From Streptomyces sp. NBC_00569 (GTDB lineage Bacteria; Actinomycetota; Actinomycetes; Streptomycetales; Streptomycetaceae), in assembly GCF_036345255.1 (NCBI RefSeq), contig NZ_CP107783.1, positions 9,169,001 to 9,233,000 of the forward strand: DNA of 64,000 nt. The letters are read 5' to 3'. Of the stretch, positions 10,372-28,202 are shown piece by piece; positions within the stretch are counted from its first letter, which is position 1; every line of letters begins with the position of its first letter. Under the pieces are notes generated by a model, which worked only from the letters and a program-made list of their open reading frames with translations, was not told the DNA's origin and did no database searches. The translations under genes and the position numbers were made by a program.

Positions 10372-11484
10372 ATGATCGCCCGTCCCGCCGAACGCCTCCA
10401 CGTCGAGGTCGCGTCGTCCGACCCGTTCGCGCGCGGAGCCGCCCGCGGTGAGCGACTGCGCGACACCCTGCCCGGAGGGATCGCCGCGTACGACCGCTTC
10501 TTCCGGCTCGGCGCCATCACCCCGCAGCAGGTCCGCGACGACGCCGAGCGTGCTCTCGACACCATCGACGCGTTCCGCCCCCATGCACGGGCGGAGATCG
10601 AGGGCATCGCCCACGGCGCCGCAGTCGACGTCTGGCATATCGCGGCCCTCAACGCACGCACCGAGATACTCGCCCGCAGCGCCACCGTCCCACCCGGCGA
10701 ATGCTCGACGATCGTCCGCCGCACGGACGGTGCATGCGCCACTTTCGGCATCCAGACGTGGGACTGGCATGTCGAGCTCAACCCCTACTGGCACACCCTG
10801 GAATCCCGCGGCGGCACCCACGACGTGGTCGGCCTCACCGAGCACGGCATCCTCGGCAAGATCGGCATCAACAGCGCAGGCCTCGCACTGCACTTCAACA
10901 TCCTCGGTCACCGCCGAGACGGAGTCGGCGGCGTTCCCATGCACGTCCTGGCCGCCGTCGTCCTGGAGGAAGCCGGGAGCGTGGCGGAGGCCATGGAGAT
11001 CGTGCGCGGCGCTCCGATCGCCTCGTCGGGATCGTTCGCCCTCTTCGACACCTCCGACGCCGTACTCCTCGACCTGAGTCCCGAGGGTGTGTTCGCGGTG
11101 GACTCCGACCCGGGCACGCTCGTGCGCACCAACCACTTCCTCACGCCGGCCCCCGCGGCCGGGGAGAAGACGTGGCTCTACCAGCCGGACTCGGGCGAGC
11201 GGTACGACCTCATCCGCAAGCGCCTGACGCCCACCGCTCTTCCGCAGACACCCGACGACCTCGTCGCTCTCCTCGTATCGGGTGAGGGCGAGGCGGCCCT
11301 CACCTGCCTGCCCGACATGAGCCTTCCCGAGGGACAGCGGTGGGCGAGCCTGGCCACGGTCATCCTCGAACCGGCCATGAGCACGGCCCGCATCCTGGAC
11401 GGCACACCGGCCGACTCCGGTTCACGGCCCTGGCGCCAACTCGCAGCACAGCGTGGCTCGGACACCGCATCCGGTACGCGGTGA
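10372..11484 (+). CDS. C45-family autoproteolytic acyltransferase/hydrolase
   Basis: A 370-residue protein of the C45 group (isopenicillin-N acyltransferase-like, Ntn hydrolase fold). These precursors cut themselves before a Cys that becomes the N-terminal nucleophile. The candidate is the Cys of PGECSTIV near residue 107. The downstream TWDWH and GINSAGLALHFN segments fit the family. The start at 10372 has GAGGAGAA upstream and begins the conserved region; earlier in-frame sequence overlaps the permease gene. It probably cleaves or transfers an acyl-amide group on the compound taken up by the permease (inference). Confidence 0.78.
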   Translation: MIARPAERLHVEVASSDPFARGAARGERLRDTLPGGIAAYDRFFRLGAITPQQVRDDAERALDTIDAFRPHARAEIEGIAHGAAVDVWHIAALNARTEILARSATVPPGECSTIVRRTDGACATFGIQTWDWHVELNPYWHTLESRGGTHDVVGLTEHGILGKIGINSAGLALHFNILGHRRDGVGGVPMHVLAAVVLEEAGSVAEAMEIVRGAPIASSGSFALFDTSDAVLLDLSPEGVFAVDSDPGTLVRTNHFLTPAPAAGEKTWLYQPDSGERYDLIRKRLTPTALPQTPDDLVALLVSGEGEAALTCLPDMSLPEGQRWASLATVILEPAMSTARILDGTPADSGSRPWRQLAAQRGSDTASGTR

Positions 11485-11575
11485 ACTCTTCATCGCACCG
11501 GACCCTGCTGCCCATCCCGTTCTGATTGCATGGAGGCCCAGCTCGAGGGCCACTATGAGGGAAGGGACAGCAAGC

Positions 11576-19185: not shown

Positions 19186-19350
19186 CTTGAAGTGCTCTCC
19201 TCCCTTCGCAAGCTCAGGAAGGAGATTCCCACCTACCTTGCGGCGGCGGGCTTGACGCCACGGGTGCGCCTGACGACCGCCCTCCCGGCAGCCGGGATCG
19301 CCACGAGGCCGATCCGGTTCAGGTGCAAGATGTTCCGGGCCGCGTTCCAG
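19186..19350 (-). ncRNA. Candidate omega RNA / right end of the IS605-like element
   Basis: TnpB elements encode a guide RNA overlapping the 3' end of tnpB and ending at the element boundary. Just past the tnpB stop, on the minus strand, is GGGAATC followed by a hairpin (arms 19217-19224 and 19197-19204, 8 pairs with one G-U) and then CACTTCAAG. This matches the usual GGAATC-hairpin-TCAA layout of such ends. The boundary is placed near 19186; the guide would be the next bases at lower coordinates. The 5' end inside tnpB is arbitrary. Confidence 0.45.
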
Positions 19351-20561
19351 TCGGCGTTGCCGGACCAGCCGCAGTCGGGGTTCTTGCACACGAACGTGGC
19401 CTGGTCCTCCCTGCTGCCCGCTGTGGTCAACCCGCAGGCTGAACAGCGCAGGGAGGTGCCAGGGGCGGGAACCTTGGCGAGGGTGCCGCCCTGACGGGCG
19501 GCCTTGTACGTCAGCATGGTCACGGTGCGGCCCCATGCCTCTTGACTGATGGAGCGGTTCAGGCCGGACTTCTGCGCGACGTTCTTCCCGGGTTCCTCGA
19601 TGGTGCCCTTGGCCGACTTGACCATGTTCGTGATGGTGAGTGCTTCGACCACGACCGTGCCGTACTGCCTGGCGATGCTGGTGGTGGTCTTGTGCTGCCA
19701 GTCAACGGCACGGCGCGTGGCTTTTGCGCGGAGCTGCTTGATCTGGTCGTAGGTGTGGTTCAGCCGGTTGGAGCTGCGCTCCTTCGGCTTGCGGAAGGAC
19801 TTGCGGTGCGCAGCCCGTTGTTCGAGGCGGAGCAGCTTGGCCTTTTCCTCCGGGTTCAGCCACTTGTCCCGGTCGGCAGTGCCATCCGGGAGCCGGGCGG
19901 GCCGTCCGTGATCCTGATGGTTGCCATCGGACAGGGCAAGGGGAAGGCTGACCCCGGCGTCGATGCCGATCTCAGGGCCCTTGTGCGGGGCAGGCTTTGA
20001 TTCCAGAGTCTGGACGCGGAAGGCGATATGCCATCCGAGTCCGTCTTTGACCAGCCGTGCCCCGGTGATCCGGTTCTCCCTGTCGGCGAGCTTGCCGACA
20101 GGGAGGTCCTTGGTCCAGCGGAAGCGGACACGTCCGACCTTGGGGATGTTGACCATGCCCCATCGGCGGTGCACCCGCTTGATCTGGAGATCGCGGCCCT
20201 GCGGGATGTCGACGGACATGACGGTGCGCAAACGGGCCTTGAAGTTCGGTGCGTCAGCGCGGCCGTTCCAGCAGTTCTTCCACGCCTGGACGTACGTCTT
20301 CAGCACCGCCTGTCCGGCCTGGGCGGGGAGCACGGTGAGCCAGTCGATCTCCTTACGGGCCTGGCGGATCGCCGCATCAGCCGCAGTCAGGGAACGCTTC
20401 TCCTTCGGGAGCATCGTCCACCAGTCGTGCAGGCAGTTCCACATGGTGCGGGCCGCGTGCGCCTGGCCGTCCATAAGCCGGGCCTGTGCAGGCGTCAGCG
20501 CCAGCCGGGCACGATGCCCGAACTGCCGCTTCTCCCAGACAAGTTCGTCCATCACGATCAC
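19233..20561 (-). CDS. tnpB: IS605-family TnpB (RNA-guided nuclease), intact
   Basis: A 442-residue TnpB, the ancestor-type of Cas12 nucleases. The three RuvC acidic residues are present: Asp201 (EIGIDAGVS), Glu306 (GTVVVEALTI) and Asp404 (GNADWNAARN). The zinc finger is intact (Cys373, Cys376, Cys392, Cys397). The N-terminal region has the expected helical wedge and HTH-like part. Length is normal for the family and no frame break is seen. The neighbouring transposase is dead, so the nuclease is kept without mobility of its own. It would cut DNA matching its guide next to a target-adjacent motif. Confidence 0.9.
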   Translation of the reverse strand: MIVMDELVWEKRQFGHRARLALTPAQARLMDGQAHAARTMWNCLHDWWTMLPKEKRSLTAADAAIRQARKEIDWLTVLPAQAGQAVLKTYVQAWKNCWNGRADAPNFKARLRTVMSVDIPQGRDLQIKRVHRRWGMVNIPKVGRVRFRWTKDLPVGKLADRENRITGARLVKDGLGWHIAFRVQTLESKPAPHKGPEIGIDAGVSLPLALSDGNHQDHGRPARLPDGTADRDKWLNPEEKAKLLRLEQRAAHRKSFRKPKERSSNRLNHTYDQIKQLRAKATRRAVDWQHKTTTSIARQYGTVVVEALTITNMVKSAKGTIEEPGKNVAQKSGLNRSISQEAWGRTVTMLTYKAARQGGTLAKVPAPGTSLRCSACGLTTAGSREDQATFVCKNPDCGWSGNADWNAARNILHLNRIGLVAIPAAGRAVVRRTRGVKPAAAR

Positions 20562-20881: not shown

Positions 20882-23071
20882 TCACGAACTCGTCAGGATG
20901 ACGAGCTGCTGCGTAGCCCTGGTCATCGCCACATAGCGGTCGACCGCTCCCTCGATACCGTCGCCGTACTCCTGCGGGTCGACGAGGACGACCAGGTCGA
21001 ACTCGAGGCCCTTCGACAGTTCCGGGGTCAGGGACCGGACGCGTGACGTCGCCCGGAACGTGGGGTGGCCGATGACGCAGGCGATCCCGTCGTCGTGTGA
21101 GGCGAGCCACGTGTCGAGGATCGAGTCCAGGTCCGTGACCGGTCCGTGGACGACGGGGATGCCGCTGCTGCGGACGGACGTCGGAACGTTGGCGTCGGGG
21201 AGCTCGGCCCGGATGACGGGCTCGGCTTCCGTCATGACCTCTTCCGGAGTGCGGTAGTTGATGCTCAGAGAGGCCTGCTTGATCCGGTCGAGCCCGGCCC
21301 GCTCCAGCCGTTCCTCCCACGCCTCCGTGAAGCCGTGCCTCGCCTGGGCACGGTCACCGACGATGGTGAAACTCCGGGACGGGCAGCGCAGGAGCAGCAT
21401 CTGCCACTCCGCGTCGGTCAGTTCCTGCGCCTCGTCCACGACGATGTGCGCGAACGGTCCCGCGAGCCGGTCCGGGTCGGCGGTGGGCAGCGCGCTCTCG
21501 TCGATCAGGCTGTCCTGGAGGTCCTTCCCGCGCAGCATCCGCACCGCGCCCTCGCTGTCGTCGCCGGCCGAGTTGAAGTCGGCCGCCGAGATGATGTCGT
21601 CGATGACGAGGGCCATGCGCTCGCGCTCGGCGGCGACCGCGGCGTCGTGCTGCCGCTTGCGCCGGGCGGCCTCCGGGTCGCCGAGCCGCTGCCGGGCCGC
21701 GTCCAGGAGTGGCAGGTCGGACACCGTCCAGGCCTGGGGCGCGTCCTTGCGCTGCAGCTTGGCCACGTCGTCGCGGTCGAGCCAGGGGGCACACATGCGC
21801 AGGTAGGCGGGGACCGTCCACAGGTCGGAGACCAGGTCGGCGGCCTCGAGCAGCGGCCACGCGCTGTTGAGGGCCGCGACCAGATCCCGGTCCTGCCGCA
21901 GCGAGCGCAGGAACAGATCGGGCGAGACGCCGTCCTCGTCCTCGTCCATGCCCTGCTTGTCCATGAGGATCGAGGCCAGTTCCTCCCAGACCTGCTCGCG
22001 CGCCTCGTTGTGCGCGGCGCCCGGACCAGGTGCCTTGAACGCCTCGGCCCAGTCGTCGGCGCTCACCCAGATGTCGGACCAGGCCGTCGTGGCGGTCATG
22101 CCCTTGGTGGGCGGCTCCTCGTAGAACCTGACGGCCTTCTCGATCGCTCGCACCATGTCCGCGGACGACTTGAGGCGGGCCACGTCCGGGTCGGTCTCCA
22201 CGGTCGCCGCGGCGCCTTCGGTGACGAGGTCCTGAAGGATGCAGGTCTGTACGCCGTCCTCTCCGAGGCTGGGCAGGACATCGGCCACGTAGTCCAGGTA
22301 GGGCCGGTGCGGACCGACGAACAGCACCCCGCCCCGGCGGTGGCTGAGGCGCGGGTCGGAGTAGAGGAGGTACGCGGAGCGGTGCAGGGCGACGACGGTC
22401 TTGCCCGTGCCGGGGCCGCCGTCGACGACGAGGGCACCACGCGAACCGGCGCGGATGATGGCGTCCTGGTCGGCCTGGATGGTGCCGAGGACGTCGCGCA
22501 TGCGGGCCGAGCGGTTGCTGCCCAGGCTGGCGATGAACGCGGACTGGTCGTCGAGCGCGGCGCGTTGCTCCAGGCCGTCGGCGGTGAACACCTCGTCCCA
22601 GTAGTCGCTGATCCGGCCGCCGGTCCAGCGGTACCGGCGGCGGCTCGCCAGGCCCATCGGGTGGGCGTGGGTCGCCCCGAAGAACGGCTCGGCGGCGGGG
22701 GAGCGCCAGTCGACGAGCAGTCGGCGTCCCTCGCTGTCGGTGAGGCCGAGCCGCCCGATGTACAGGGGTTCTGCGTCGTCCGCGCCGACGACGCGGCCCA
22801 GGCACAGATCCAGGCCGAAGCGGCGCAGGGCGCGCAGGCGGCCGGTCAGCCGGTGGATCTCCGAGTCCCGGTCCATCGCCTCGCGGCCGATGCCGCCGGG
22901 GGCCCTGCGCAGGGTGTCGAGACGGTCGGAGAGTTCGGTGATCGTCTGGTCGAGGCTGCTCGCGATGGCCGCGAAGTGCGCCTCGTCGCCGGAGATCAGG
23001 TTCGCTTCGGCCTTGGAGGAGAGACGCTCGGGAAGGTGGAACGCACTGGTGGTCGTGGAGGTCAAGGTCAT
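20882..23071 (-). CDS. helR: HelR-type RNA polymerase-recycling ATPase
   Basis: A 729-residue superfamily-1 helicase-like ATPase of the HelD/HelR class. These proteins bind RNA polymerase, dislodge it from stalled complexes and, for HelR, protect it from rifamycins. An N-terminal coiled coil (about residues 20-85) is followed by YIGRLGLTDSEGRRLLVDWRSPAAEPFF and Walker A GGPGTGKT at 218-225. The DEAQELTDAEW motif and the final VAMTRATQQLVIL follow. The start at 23071 opens the conserved region; upstream codons run through the leader. A sequence matching the rifamycin-associated element lies about 200 bases upstream, which is the strongest argument for HelR rather than general HelD. Confidence 0.9.
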   Translation of the reverse strand: MTLTSTTTSAFHLPERLSSKAEANLISGDEAHFAAIASSLDQTITELSDRLDTLRRAPGGIGREAMDRDSEIHRLTGRLRALRRFGLDLCLGRVVGADDAEPLYIGRLGLTDSEGRRLLVDWRSPAAEPFFGATHAHPMGLASRRRYRWTGGRISDYWDEVFTADGLEQRAALDDQSAFIASLGSNRSARMRDVLGTIQADQDAIIRAGSRGALVVDGGPGTGKTVVALHRSAYLLYSDPRLSHRRGGVLFVGPHRPYLDYVADVLPSLGEDGVQTCILQDLVTEGAAATVETDPDVARLKSSADMVRAIEKAVRFYEEPPTKGMTATTAWSDIWVSADDWAEAFKAPGPGAAHNEAREQVWEELASILMDKQGMDEDEDGVSPDLFLRSLRQDRDLVAALNSAWPLLEAADLVSDLWTVPAYLRMCAPWLDRDDVAKLQRKDAPQAWTVSDLPLLDAARQRLGDPEAARRKRQHDAAVAAERERMALVIDDIISAADFNSAGDDSEGAVRMLRGKDLQDSLIDESALPTADPDRLAGPFAHIVVDEAQELTDAEWQMLLLRCPSRSFTIVGDRAQARHGFTEAWEERLERAGLDRIKQASLSINYRTPEEVMTEAEPVIRAELPDANVPTSVRSSGIPVVHGPVTDLDSILDTWLASHDDGIACVIGHPTFRATSRVRSLTPELSKGLEFDLVVLVDPQEYGDGIEGAVDRYVAMTRATQQLVILTSS

Positions 23072-23273
23072 CAGCTCCGATCCGAGGTCACGCCTGCGAA
23101 GTCCGACGGTGCGCACACGCGCACCTCGGCACCGAGCGTCCACACCGGTGACGCGAGTCCCACCACCGGCTCGACGCCACCGCGCGACCCATCGACCGAC
23201 AACAACACATGCACTTCGTTGATCTCCCATTTCCGCAGGTTCGGGCCTCGGCCAGCGATTGTGCGGCAAGGTG

Positions 23274-23293
23274 GGGGCCTTGCCGCAAGCCCC
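23274..23293 (-). promoter_or_regulatory. Rifamycin-associated element (RAE)
   Basis: GGGGCCTTGCCGCAAGCCCC, the reverse complement of the published RAE inverted repeat as I recall it (GGGGCTTGCGGCAAGGCCCC), with every base matching. RAEs precede rifamycin resistance genes in actinobacteria and are needed for their induction. Here it lies upstream of helR on the same strand. Confidence 0.85.
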
Positions 23294-23340
23294 CCAGTGC
23301 GCTATAAGTTAAGAGTGGCAAGGAGTGGGAAGACCTCCTT

Positions 23341-23376
23341 GCCTTTCTTGCGCTCTACGCCTTTCTTGCTCTCTAC
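23341..23376 (+). repeat. 18-base tandem duplication
   Basis: GCCTTTCTTGCGCTCTAC is followed directly by the same 18 bases with one change (GCTCTCTAC ending). It lies between the RAE and the gene at 23482. Function unknown. Confidence 0.8.
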
Positions 23377-23481
23377 GGACGGGCACATCTTTCAAGCAGT
23401 GGCGACGCGCGCAGACAGCGGCGGGTTCCCGCGCCGAAGATTGCCGGGCACAGGCAGTGCGGCAGGACTCACCGAGCAGGC

Positions 23482-24099
23482 ATGCTGATGCCCTTCGGCA
23501 GAGACGGGGCGGCAGTGGAAGCAAGCACAACCCGCAGCGTGACGCGTGCGCGCGTGGGATCGGGACTGGCGGTGGCTGTCCTTCTGCTGCCCCTCGCCGG
23601 CTACGGACTGGCCCGTACCGGGGCAGTCCCTGAAGGCACACCGATCGTGCTCGCCCTGCTGTGCGGGATCTTTGGCTTCGTCCTCCTCACCGAACTGGGC
23701 GAGGAACGAGCCCCGTTCGGGCACTCGTCGTCGCACCTGACCGCGCACACGCTGACCGGGGAACGCTCCGTCGACCTGAACCGCATCGCCACCGTCCGCC
23801 TGCTCACGACCTTTTCGTACAGCGGCCCGCACCGCACCCTGGTGGTGTGCGACGCCCATGGTGTGCGCCTGGGCATCACGACGAAGAGAGCCCGCGGAAA
23901 GGTTCGCCGTGCGATCGAGAAGGCCGACGCGAACGCCGCGCGAGGAGTCCCCCGCCCCCGGGTGAGCCGAGCGGCCCGGGCATTCCTGGGCCTCGCCCCG
24001 GGACAAGGGCTCGTCGTCCACACGGTTCTCGCCTTTCTGCTTGTGACGACGTCCGCGATCCTGTACTTGGTCGTTGCGCTCCGGCTCGGCGGGCAATGA
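23482..24099 (+). CDS. Predicted membrane protein, unknown function
   Basis: A 205-residue protein not recognised. It has two hydrophobic segments near the start (VGSGLAVAVLLLPLAGYGLA and TPIVLALLCGIFGFVLLTEL). A middle soluble domain of about 100 residues, TAHTLTGERSVDLNRIATVR onward, resembles the PH-like fold of short bacterial membrane proteins. One C-terminal helix follows (VVHTVLAFLLVTTSAILYLVVAL). The start may be ATG 23482 or 23488. It diverges from helR; whether the RAE also affects it is unknown. Confidence 0.65.
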   Translation: MLMPFGRDGAAVEASTTRSVTRARVGSGLAVAVLLLPLAGYGLARTGAVPEGTPIVLALLCGIFGFVLLTELGEERAPFGHSSSHLTAHTLTGERSVDLNRIATVRLLTTFSYSGPHRTLVVCDAHGVRLGITTKRARGKVRRAIEKADANAARGVPRPRVSRAARAFLGLAPGQGLVVHTVLAFLLVTTSAILYLVVALRLGGQ

Positions 24100-24213
24100 G
24101 AGCTGGGAGCATCTACGTTCCCTATCGCGAGACGTACTGAGGCAACTCGGCCCGGAGAAAGTGAACTTCGCTCCCCAGGCGACCTTGCTCGCCGCGCTCC
24201 TCGCACCGCCGCT

Positions 24214-24441
24214 CTACGAGGTGCCGCACCGTCTGCGCCTGCTGGTGCGCCCGGACACGGTCTTGCGGTGGCGTGCGCCGGCGGTGTCGACGAACTCGGC
24301 GAAGTCGCCGGACGGGTCGGCCGGCGCCGCCGCGGCAGAGCTGGTGCGGGCTGGTGCGGCGGCGCCCTGGGTGACCACGGTGGTGGTCGGCTGGGCGAGA
24401 GCCAGGGCGAATGCGGCCGCGCCGGCCATTAGCGGACCCAT
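24214..24441 (-). CDS. Possible small secreted protein
   Basis: A 75-codon frame starting MGPLMAGAAAFALALAQPTT, which looks like a signal peptide, followed by an Ala/Thr-rich stretch and an Arg-rich end. No ribosome binding site is obvious and no family is recognised. It may be the start of a longer gene whose 3' part has been lost, or not a gene. The rest of 24100-24588 shows nothing I can assign. Confidence 0.25.
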   Translation of the reverse strand: MGPLMAGAAAFALALAQPTTTVVTQGAAAPARTSSAAAAPADPSGDFAEFVDTAGARHRKTVSGRTSRRRRCGTS

Positions 24442-24588
24442 ACACCGGCTCGCCCGAGATGGACGCTGCGGCGGGTGCGGTGGAGGTCGAGACCGGCCGC
24501 GGTCGGCGGCGGTCTCAACGGAAGGTGCCGGCATCGGTGAACTCCCGGAGCAAGAGCAGCGGTTGACGCCATGAACCAACCCAGCAGG

Positions 24589-24668
24589 GCGTACCGGTTT
24601 GCGTACCGGTTTTTTGGGGCCTGCAGTTGCGAGTTGGTTGCGTTGGACCGGTACGCAAACCGGTACGC
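24589..24668. repeat. First A block: paired 12-mers in inverted orientation
   Basis: GCGTACCGGTTT is repeated twice in direct contact (24589-24612). After 32 bases come GGACCGGTACGC and AAACCGGTACGC (24645-24668), the same 12-mers inverted. The whole could form a cruciform or bind two dimers. Confidence 0.85.
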
Positions 24669-25280
24669 GCTTCGGCACGCACTTCTTCACCCAACGTGTC
24701 GAAACTCCGGGACGGCAAGACGTCCGACGGCCGCTGCGCACCCTCGTACTCAGAAGCTGCGCAGTGTGGTGCGCAGCCTCCACACGACCCGGTGCGCAGT
24801 GACCGGTGCCGGGGTGCGGCCCACGACTGCGCAGCGTCCTATGGAACTCGTATTCGGGGTGCAGTGCGCAGGTGCCCGAGCTCGCTGCGCAACGCGGTCC
24901 TGGGAGATGCGCAGCACGCTCGCCCGGCACTGACTCCGGCTGCGCACTGCCAACTGAGGCGCGTTGCGCACCGGGTAGTGCGCAACCCGCACCGGTCGTC
25001 TGTGAACGGTTGGTACGCCCTTGTGGCGCCTACCAAAACGCGTACCGGGCGGCCGGAGCGGTACGGCAAGAACGTGTACCGGTACCTGAGCGACCGGTTG
25101 CTCTCTGCTGGCCATGGGGTCATCTGACAGGTCTGTGACCTGTGGGTTCTGTAGACCGGTACGCGTTTCGGTACGTGCTTGTCCGCCCCCGCAAAACGCG
25201 TACCGGTCGGCGGTTGGCAGAGGGCGCGGTCAGTCGCCGCAGCGCCCTGGAAACCGGGTGGCACGGAATCGGCCGAGGCT

Positions 25281-25315
25281 GCCGGTACGCGTTGGGAAAC
25301 CAAACGCGTACCGGC
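25281..25315. repeat. Perfect 13-base inverted repeat in the second A block
   Basis: GCCGGTACGCGTT (25281-25293) and AACGCGTACCGGC (25303-25315) are perfect inverted arms with a 9-base loop. This is the longest uninterrupted version of the A motif. Confidence 0.85.
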
Positions 25316-25551
25316 GCGGACAGTGCGCAGTTGCCGCGAAAGGAGCGCCCACGGTGCTGCGCAACCTCCGCTGCGCACCCTGACTGCGCACCTTGTGGTC
25401 CCCGCCGCGCAGGGTTCCGGCCGGTGCTGCGCAGTGGACGATCGGGTCGTGCTGCGCAACCATCCGCGAGCCGTTGCGCAGCCGGTGACAGGCGGGTGCG
25501 CAACCAGTGCGCAGTGGCGCCCGGCGGCGTGGGGCAGCCAGAAGCGTACCG

Positions 25552-26366
25552 GTGTGCGTAACGGCTGGCTGTGACGGACGGTGATTCAGCCGTGATCGCG
25601 GGGCTCCTTTTCGGCAAGGCTTCGGTGCGCCCTGCCGGGCGTCAACACCGGCATTGACCAAGGCCCGCAGTCCCGGTCGGGATGCGGATCCGGACACCAT
25701 TGGGATGGCCTGTAAGCCAGGTGGACAACCTCACTGCCCGGGATCAGCCGGTACGTCGGACGGAAGACAATGGGGACCAGGCGACCCGCCGGACCCGGTG
25801 AAGGTTCTGATCGAGCTGTTGATCATGAAGCGGTCGCGCCTGGGTGGGGGAGGCTTAACGCTCGCCGGCGACCCCGGCCGCCGGAACCGGCATCGCCGAC
25901 AAAGTAACCCTCAAAATCAGGAGCAAAGTCACCCGCAAACCAGTCCTCAAAGCCCCTAGTGCAACCTTCACCGCCTGAAACAGGAAAGCGGCAGGTCAGG
26001 CCCACTGGTACGGGCGTACCGGTCTCGCCGACAACCCCTCTCACGCACACTCCGGCCCGGCACCAGGTGGGGAAAGAAGAGAAAGAGCAGGCGGCAGGAC
26101 CGGGCCGGCGCGTGCGTGCTCGGGGTTCGGAGCCGCGATCTGTCTTGGGGGAGGCCACCACCTTCACCCTGCTTCGGCAGGCACCCGGCGGCCCGACGAT
26201 GTCAGGATCGATGCCGAGCGCCCTCAGCTCTCCCAGCCACGCGCCTCCACGTGGCGCTGGCCGCGCAACGCGCCCTGCCAGCCTGGCGGCGAGGGATCGG
26301 CTTGTCCGGCTGATGGCGGCCATGATCTAAGTCCCCATGGGTCATTCCTTGCCGTCTCCGTACTCG
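25552..26366. other. Gene-poor region right of the array
   Basis: About 815 bases. A minus-strand frame of 166 codons (25823-26323) is open and contains an aromatic/acidic repeat (DWFAGDFAPDFEGYFVGDAG), but it has no recognisable family and no clear ribosome binding site. I see no RNA gene. Treated as unassigned. Confidence 0.35.
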
Positions 26367-28202
26367 TCAGTCGTTGATGTCGACTCCGTAGCCGCGCGCG
26401 AGGGTGTCGAGTCCGTGGTCGTATCCCTGTCCGACGGCGCGGAACCGCCAGAGCGGTCCACGGCGGTAGAGCTCGGCCAGGATCAGCGTGCGCTCGCTGG
26501 TGGCGGCGTCCAGTGTCGCGCGCATCAGCGGGGCGGCGCTGCTGCCGGGCGCCGCGGCCACTTGGACAGCGCCGACGTCGCCGAAGGACAGGCTGCCGTC
26601 GATGGCCGCGGCGATCACCACCCGACGTGAGGACGGGGGCAGGGAAGCGACATCGACGGTGATGGTCTGTTCGGCCGGGCCGTTGGTGAGCAGGTGAACG
26701 GTGCCGCCGGGGTTCTCCGGGGCGCCGTAGAACACGAAGTCCTCGTCGAAGGTGATCTGTTCGTCCTCGTCGAGCACGAAGGCGACGACGTCGACCTCAC
26801 CGTGTTCCCGGGGTGCCCAGGACGCGGTGACATGCCACTGGGAAACAGACGTGGGCAGGTCGATGACGCCGCCGCGGGGAAGGACGCGGGGTGCCGCAGC
26901 ATTGATGGACGTCTCCGCTGCTCTGGCCCCTGCCACCTGGGCACCGGCATTGGCGACGGAGATGGTCGCGGTGGCGGCGGTCACAGACGGATCGACGAGC
27001 CACCGCTCATCGCGCACCGAGAGCCCCAGTTGCGTGATCCGGGGCATGCGACGGTCGTTCTCCCCACCGGAGAGGACGACGACGTCGGTGACGCTGCGCG
27101 AGAGATTGACCGCTGCGGATCCGCCGAGCTCGACGACGCGGCCGCGCGCGTCGGCTGCCTCCGCGTGCGCACCACCCAGGACGAGTACGCGATGTCCGGC
27201 CAGTGGCCTGTCGCCCGACCCGACGGAAACGGGCTTGGTCTGGCGTGGGGCAGGGATGGCCGGTGCCGGTCCGGGCGCCTGATGCGTCGCTCCGGGTTCT
27301 ACGTGGCTGAGCAGTTGGAGGAAGATGTCCTCGTCGAGGACGGGCACCCCCTCGGCGGCGGCCCGCCGAGCCTTCGCCGATCCGGACGTGGGCTCGTTGG
27401 TGACGAGGACGCTGGTGTGGTGGCTGACCGAGCCCATCATATTGAGTCCGGCGGCAACGCCCCGGCCGATCAACTCGGCCCGGGCACAGGCGGTTTCACC
27501 GGTGATCGCGACCTTCATGCCCTGCCGAAGCGGTGCTCCCGGAGTCAGCCGGCCGGGATTGCGGTAGGCGCAGGGTGTCTTGGGCGGCTTCGGCGTGAAC
27601 TGAGACTCGGCCCGGGGCGGGCAGCTCACGAAAGGCAACGGCAGCGCGAGCCGTGCCGCCTCACGCAATGACGCCCGCAGGATCCCGGCCAGCACCCGGG
27701 TGTCGTCCAGCGCGTCGTGCGCGTGCTGCTGCGGTACGCCGTAGTGGGCGGCCAGCGTGCCCAGCTTCATGTCGTGCGTCGGCGGATCCACTTGGCGGTT
27801 CAAGGTGAGGGTGCACAGCCGCTGCGAGACGGGCAGCCACATGCGGGCCCGGGCAAATTCGTAGGCGAGGAAGTCGTAGTCGAACTGTGCGTTGTGGGCG
27901 ACCAGGATGCGGTTCTGCAGCATTGCGCCGATGCGTTCGGCCACCTGGTCGAAGGTCGGCGCCCCGCGCAGCCGCTCAGCGGTCAGCCCGTGCACATCGA
28001 CCGGCCCCGGATCGCACCCCGGATCAAGCAGCGTGGAGAACTCCCCGGTCTGCTCGCCATCCGGCCCGACGGTGACCACGGCGACCGACAGCACACGGTC
28101 CCGCCGAGGTATCAGCCCGGAGGTCTCCACGTCGACGAGAGCCCAGTCGTGGGCGTAACCGTCCCCAGAGATGAGGTCGAAGAAGGGCGAGGCGAGACTC
28201 AT
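26367..28202 (-). CDS. DEDDh exonuclease - BRCT - TerD fusion protein
   Basis: A 611-residue three-part protein. Residues 15-180 are a DnaQ-type 3'-5' exonuclease with the motifs VDVETSG (Asp24, Glu26), HNAQFDYDF and HDALDDT, so all four acidic residues and the His are present. Two BRCT-like regions follow at about 225-300 (GMKVAITGETACARAELIGR) and 345-425 (LAGHRVLVLGG). The last 170 residues are a TerD-family domain (WHVTASWAPREHGEVDVVAFVLDEDE), a calcium-binding module of stress and tellurite-resistance systems. No partner ter genes are adjacent. A role in DNA damage or stress response is likely; the substrate is not known. Confidence 0.88.
   Translation of the reverse strand: MSLASPFFDLISGDGYAHDWALVDVETSGLIPRRDRVLSVAVVTVGPDGEQTGEFSTLLDPGCDPGPVDVHGLTAERLRGAPTFDQVAERIGAMLQNRILVAHNAQFDYDFLAYEFARARMWLPVSQRLCTLTLNRQVDPPTHDMKLGTLAAHYGVPQQHAHDALDDTRVLAGILRASLREAARLALPLPFVSCPPRAESQFTPKPPKTPCAYRNPGRLTPGAPLRQGMKVAITGETACARAELIGRGVAAGLNMMGSVSHHTSVLVTNEPTSGSAKARRAAAEGVPVLDEDIFLQLLSHVEPGATHQAPGPAPAIPAPRQTKPVSVGSGDRPLAGHRVLVLGGAHAEAADARGRVVELGGSAAVNLSRSVTDVVVLSGGENDRRMPRITQLGLSVRDERWLVDPSVTAATATISVANAGAQVAGARAAETSINAAAPRVLPRGGVIDLPTSVSQWHVTASWAPREHGEVDVVAFVLDEDEQITFDEDFVFYGAPENPGGTVHLLTNGPAEQTITVDVASLPPSSRRVVIAAAIDGSLSFGDVGAVQVAAAPGSSAAPLMRATLDAATSERTLILAELYRRGPLWRFRAVGQGYDHGLDTLARGYGVDIND

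Follow-up and report, generated by a model that had tools for sequence, protein, structure and literature searches.

What is the role of two short DNA words that alternate in blocks over nearly 1 kb of a Streptomyces chromosome? The question is raised by positions 24589-25551 of the window, that is, of the whole 64,000-nt stretch that we analysed (9.169-9.233 Mb of the 10.32-Mb single-contig genome of Streptomyces sp. NBC_00569), where copies of GCGTACCG (hereafter A) alternate with copies of TGCGCA (hereafter B). A first-pass annotation, made from the letters alone, had suggested two kinds of reading: a site where proteins bind and act in cis on replication, transfer or partition, or a chromosomal feature such as a decoy or the target of a nucleoid protein. 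To our knowledge, little has been established about how the large type IV conjugative plasmids of Streptomyces, to which the question leads, are copied, segregated and switched to transfer.

Results

Two words in alternating, phased blocks

Word counts confirmed the numbers and the A-B-A-B-A order first described: ten A (four, five and one) and twenty B (eleven and nine), all exact copies (Table 1). The further claim that the two words never mix holds for perfect copies; when a single mismatch is allowed, B sites share bases with a few A-like words. B is indeed a perfect palindrome, and A occurs in mixed orientation with inverted pairs, the first A block forming a 25-nt inverted repeat with a 36-nt loop. 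Over the whole window, A was observed 20 times for 2.9 expected and B 46 times for 24.7 expected in dinucleotide shuffles, and across 200 order-2 Markov sequences, each 64 kb long, no 963-bp stretch held more than four B or three A. By these sequences and the genome scans described below, clusters of such density are not common by chance. The proposed helical spacing of B near 11 bp was also borne out, with R = 0.705 at 11 bp over the 18 gaps of the window; pooling the arrays gave R = 0.50 over 137 gaps, many of which share descent, a value reached in 0 of 2000 jitter controls.

The array proper is gene-free, as had been stated, but the DNA adjoining it holds a decayed tcpC fragment. Of the open reading frames that cross the array, three lack a Pfam match; on this basis a coding reading was rejected, and the first-pass proposal was not refuted by conserved translation. 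An RNA reading was rejected as well: no Rfam family reached its gathering score in 23000-27000, and the window contains no tRNA.

Table 1. Features of the array and its surroundings (window positions; a point marks features without strand).
Feature	Position	Strand	Description
Decayed tcpC fragment	24283..24555	-	Matches L021 TcpC residues 8-98, 44% identity, E 4.5e-8; DNA match to L021 tcpC start
A block 1	24589..24668	.	Four A: forward pair 12 bp apart, then reverse pair 12 bp apart
B block 1	24735..24984	.	Eleven TGCGCA
A block 2	25040..25313	.	Five GCGTACCG, orientation mixed, inverted pairs present
B block 2	25324..25513	.	Nine TGCGCA
A block 3	25544..25563	+	One GCGTACCG; one-mismatch copy 12 bp further
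DNA equivalent to the L021 stretch just downstream of the Replic_Relax gene	25717..26147	.	Pairwise blastn of copies and L021 gene positions

A dispersed family and its probable relic in the window

Do other such arrays exist? In a DNA search covering 61 genomes, four further places emerged in NBC_00569 itself, at 10.00 Mb (86%), 1.932 Mb (80%), 0.153 Mb (81%) and 1.937 Mb (78%, about 97 bp), which makes the array a member of a dispersed family; only short matches were found in the other genomes, in 4 of 60. Genome-wide, NBC_00569 contains 46 B triples (three TGCGCA with gaps of 4-34 bp), 45 of them inside array copies, and a reversed-pattern control gave none. An insertion sequence or transposable repeat was rejected, because the copies have no common exact ends and their homology stops at a different point in each.

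The best preserved neighbourhood lies at 1.92-1.94 Mb (locus L021), where one array separates a divergent tcpC unit from a shortened winged-helix gene. This tcpC (Pfam TpcC, 1e-11), which on the relatives opens a type IV transfer operon, is followed by a gene for a VirB4-like ATPase (AAA_10), whose NCBIfam TcpF match falls far under the cut-off. A second L021 array, adjoined by an IS630-type transposase, precedes an intact winged-helix gene and then Replic_Relax. In exact words, the array adjoining tcpC reads A-B-A-B-A; B comes first (B-A-B-A) in the second L021 array and at 10.00 Mb, and what remains at 0.153 Mb is five B with a single A.

When the copies were aligned pairwise by blastn and set against the L021 gene positions, the winged-helix and Replic_Relax genes proved absent from the window copy. 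Since tcpC is fragmentary and these two genes are lost, the window array is an orphan relic: by comparison with its relatives, it is almost certainly a decayed chromosomal copy of an intergenic control array from a family of Streptomyces conjugative plasmids.

Two other genes of the window deserve mention. At 19233-20561 (minus strand) lies a TnpB-like OrfB gene of the IS605/IS607 kind, with Cas12f1-like TNB and OrfB_IS605 domains, and at 26367-28202 (minus strand) a single protein combines RNase_T exonuclease, BRCT and TerD domains.

Motifs are kept while spacers change

The species-genome collection yielded one relative, Streptomyces sp. SID14478 (L031), in which tcpC and the winged-helix gene flank an array of these words, arranged as in L021. 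The block order there is A-B-A-B-A too, apart from a single A that strays into the first B block and a single B that strays into the last A block. When SID14478 is compared with the window, identity is about 50% in the spacers, 73-88% in A and 74-83% in B, both directions being reported because the motif sites are the exact words of one sequence of the pair. In Fisher tests, which covered 10 of 20 directed comparisons, B stood above the spacers in all ten (p ≤ 0.025) and A in eight, the failing ones being c2 to the window and c3a to SID14478. The array motifs are kept while the spacers change.

Sister arrays in the genus and on plasmids

Many Streptomyces and large plasmids carry a sister version in which TGCGCA is kept and CCGACCAC replaces A. 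Relatives of tcpC occur in 36 of 199 genomes of the genus, NBC_00569 counted. At nine loci (L064-L071 and L074), CCGACCA(C) words stand ahead of tcpC and are followed by six to nine B, most with A words again past B; L072 has the same pattern with inserted DNA. Fewer sites are found at L073 (three B only), L076 (four B) and L077-L081 (none or single sites), and the sequence of L075 ends early. L062 has scattered sites and L063 no B within 2.2 kb, with B clusters further away on both contigs. That of L062 (about 10911-11503, genome G083) is several kb distant from tcpC and from the winged-helix gene alike. L063 (5205-10315, G147) has an enlarged array: its tcpC and winged-helix genes are separated by several blocks with about 33 CCGACCA in all, and TGCGCA groups stand between some of these blocks.

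On the linear plasmids NZ_CP109230.1 (103 kb) and NZ_CP107763.1 (171 kb), the array fills the gap between two genes annotated as 'hypothetical protein' (the winged-helix gene) and 'conjugal transfer protein'. In total, 32 plasmid records match the sister region, the only version matched in the plasmid collection; neither the window array nor that of L021 has a match there. No match to tcpC was found among phage records. Nine more TGCGCA are clustered on NZ_CP109230.1 (L084, 33529-33936) at a distance from tcpC, where an unannotated open reading frame (a DUF2637-type membrane protein, judged by eye) ends and ahead of the following gene. Among the plasmids, the 41.5-kb linear NZ_CP108035.1 (L094, 1-41475) is annotated as a mirror image, nearly all genes being present twice, with identical protein accession and in inverted order.

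The winged-helix protein itself had matches, mostly weak, in 284 of 392 genomes. Among the 30 loci listed, the sister type accounts for 24 (L101-L124), with at least nine B in the richest 900 bp, which may include tcpC, in 18 and at least four CCGACCA in 19 of them; the others are L095 (NBC_00569 itself, twelve B) and L096-L100 (one to three B).

Genomes that lack a close tcpC seldom have dense B clusters. In the 15 genomes besides NBC_00569 with a close tcpC (E 1.4e-60 or better), the median is 12 B triples and 11 of them have at least eight, against a median of one both in the 20 genomes with a distant tcpC (at least eight in 1) and in the 163 without a match (at least eight in 2). The exceptions are G203, G086 and G185. 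G086 and G185 contain 11 and 10 triples without a tcpC match and possibly harbour other array-bearing elements.

B sites inside tcpC, and A and B as separable parts

Fifteen of the 19 tcpC genes tested contain five to nine B, nearly all within nucleotides 170-450. Protein-preserving codon shuffles of this stretch gave a mean of 0.3-1.2 B, and in these 15 genes the observed count was reached in 0 of 1000 tries. The exceptions are L021 (no B), SID14478 and G083 (one each) and G147 (two, reached by 18 of 1000 shuffles); L021 and SID14478 have two intergenic B blocks in place of the coding block. As the sites inside tcpC occupy two reading frames, no repeated peptide accounts for them. From the positions of its sites, the coding block seems less regular by helical turns. 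Seen from the winged-helix side, both array types have the plan A-B-A-B, and it is the tcpC start that shifts. This common plan argues for a DNA site that would be independent of gene borders.

A 7-mer scan covered the DNA ahead of tcpC at 30 loci. A is the commonest word in 12 of the 14 close loci, and B in L032 and L036. Of the divergent loci, L049 and L052, which lack B arrays, have A-like clusters (ACTCACC and GCGGCCA, respectively); no significant cluster was found in 13 others (L047, L048, L050, L051 and L053-L061), L050 showing GTGGTAA/CTTACCA with p 0.13, nor in the incomplete L046. A thus seems to go with the transfer operon and to drift, and B seems to go with the closer type of tcpC and winged-helix gene. 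In the loci split by insertions (L063, L069 and L072), one A block remains with each gene; B lies closer to tcpC in L069 and closer to the winged-helix gene in the other two.

The winged-helix protein beside the array

In PHROGs, the winged-helix protein matches replication initiators and a DnaD-like loader. The best fold matches of a one-winged model are RctB domain 1 and the primosome protein DnaB, none at E ≤ 0.001 and with generic winged helices matching the predicted fold equally well; the weak matches of a double-winged-helix model include TubR, a winged-helix plasmid segregation protein. The structure models are partly of low confidence, and no PDB entry matched the sequence of the sister protein. 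On NZ_CP108648.1, a homologue lies directly ahead of dnaB. There are 666 relatives above threshold, and the 120 listed are named only as hypothetical, helix-turn-helix or DNA-binding proteins. Gene and array do not always go together: two small plasmids with a related gene have no array ahead of it, pSSFR2, with a homologue of the C-terminal part, has no such array there, and G073 has the array without the gene.

Discussion

A chromosomal function, be it as a nucleoid-protein target or as a decoy, is not supported: all but one of the B triples of NBC_00569 lie in element copies, dense B clusters are seldom seen in genomes that lack a close tcpC, and the window copy is a plasmid relic. A cis-acting site for replication, transfer or partition fits the position on the relatives, between an initiator-like winged-helix gene and a conjugation operon. 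Which of these processes is controlled? We give a probability of about one half to a joint control site for plasmid replication and transfer. In this reading B would act as an iteron-like site, its copies stacked along one side of the helix and bound by the initiator-like protein or a partner to start or restrain copying. A would act as operator at both divergent promoters and set the expression of the transfer genes and of the initiator, and its faster-changing word may give each plasmid its own specificity. The matching gene order and closely similar array in L021 and SID14478, and the adjoining of the sister arrays to the same gene pair, speak for this reading, as do the conservation of both motifs over the spacers, the phasing of B, the initiator-like matches of the winged-helix protein, its homologue ahead of dnaB and the excess of B inside tcpC. 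Against it stand the small plasmids that have a related gene and no array, the array of G073 that lacks the gene, the place of B near tcpC in the split L069, and the weak fold matches with models of partly low confidence.

Is the array, then, an iteron origin? In site density, in its phasing by helical turns and in its initiator-like neighbour, present on the relatives and absent from the window and G073, it resembles one and would work like one. However, its repeats are not head-to-tail, B being palindromic and A of mixed orientation. Neither a DnaA box (two patterns) nor a 50-bp stretch above 54% AT was found in 12 array regions, the GC skew of NZ_CP109230.1 gave no origin signal, and the array is off-centre on 9 of 13 plasmid records (topology seen for two). 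With no unwinding region or DnaA box, the mixed A and the off-centre place, we have not filed it as an iteron origin.

The adjoining Tcp-type operon also suggests an origin of transfer, in which A (perhaps B) would be boxes for a winged-helix relaxosome accessory protein, for example the Replic_Relax product, with a nick site in or near the array. The position within the transfer locus, directly ahead of tcpC on the relatives, would suit an oriT, and A-like clusters hold this place even in the divergent L049 and L052. Replic_Relax lies within about 43 kb of tcpC, on the same contig, in 9 of 12 genomes examined. The pCW3 study describes a winged-helix protein, TcpK, that binds tandem 9-nt boxes in an oriT inside the tcp locus (PMC6137059). 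Yet the oriT described there measures 150 bp (PMC6137059), while the array reaches nearly 1 kb with dozens of sites. No annotated relaxase gene was found within 20 kb of it on L082 or L083 (the plasmid of L083 being typed MOBF), and G128 has an A-like word without a Replic_Relax match. We regard an oriT as unlikely, if still worth weighing. The clt of an FtsK-like (TraB) transfer system was rejected, because the adjoining operon is of type IV (tcpC and a VirB4-like ATPase) and not a single FtsK-like tra gene.

A pure transcriptional operator, where two regulators on A and B would silence the divergent transfer operon and winged-helix gene with no role in replication, would account for there being one A block per divergent gene, for the block that stays with each gene in the split loci, and for the prevalence of A words ahead of tcpC in the close loci. 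It is a distinctly unlikely explanation to our mind, since a B block within tcpC and nearly 1 kb of sites would be unusual for an operator and the adjoining protein is initiator-like rather than repressor-like by PHROGs, although generic winged helices fit its fold equally well. We consider it very unlikely that the array is a centromere or partition site, bound by the winged-helix or another centromere-binding protein: no annotated parA, parM or tubZ lies beside it on L082 or L083, and on NZ_CP109230.1 the nearest annotated ParB is at 89.8 kb and the array at 59 kb, about 30 kb apart. On SCP1, three parS inverted repeats surround each parAB operon (PMC13245405). What such a site would explain is the short, helically phased repeats in two clusters, and TubR among the weak model matches.

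Short-site arrays beside rep or tra genes are already known in Streptomyces, as in pWTY27 (PMC3583192), and the array has likenesses to several systems. One is ori2/RctB of Vibrio cholerae chromosome 2, with short sites of two distinct classes next to the gene of a winged-helix initiator and a 12-mer array of regular 10-11 bp spacing (PMC6090056); RctB domain 1 is the part weakly matched by our one-winged model. But ori2 consists of head-to-tail 12-mers with GATC, an AT-rich region and a DnaA box (PMC6090056), whereas B is palindromic, neither of the latter two was found in the array, and a transfer operon adjoins it. The repAB/iteron and clt sites of pWTY27 are likewise cis sites of short direct and inverted repeats beside rep or tra, but replication and transfer have separate sites there, with few repeats and a clt for the FtsK-like TraA (PMC3583192), in contrast to the type IV operon and the two words in alternating blocks here. 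The pCW3 boxes share the Tcp-type locus, the short repeated boxes and the winged-helix binder, and differ in being one tandem pair of another sequence without a second alternating word (PMC6137059). The pIJ101 sps (SpdA2) and SCP1 parS1/parS2 are conserved inverted-repeat words bound by plasmid proteins on Streptomyces plasmids, one parS1 even lying inside a gene, but they have few copies each and the SCP1 sites surround parAB operons (PMC4170104, PMC13245405). The sps is a different 12-bp word (PMC4170104) and was rejected as the array word.

Our searches of open PubMed Central papers gave nothing on this array, nor any account of two alternating words, one constant and the other drifting, that a rep-like gene shares with a type IV operon and that extend in part into tcpC. 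We propose, tentatively and as something short of probable, that they define a bipartite control site of a new kind in Streptomyces conjugative plasmids, in which blocks for two proteins would alternate, a fixed TGCGCA would be combined with a drifting word, and copy control would be tied to transfer, part of the site lying in the tcpC coding sequence regardless of frame.

In conclusion, the array offers a short DNA target together with a candidate protein, both of which can be tested. tcpC provides a case of a putative binding-site array maintained inside a coding sequence, and the array family a case of a constant motif beside a changing neighbour motif.
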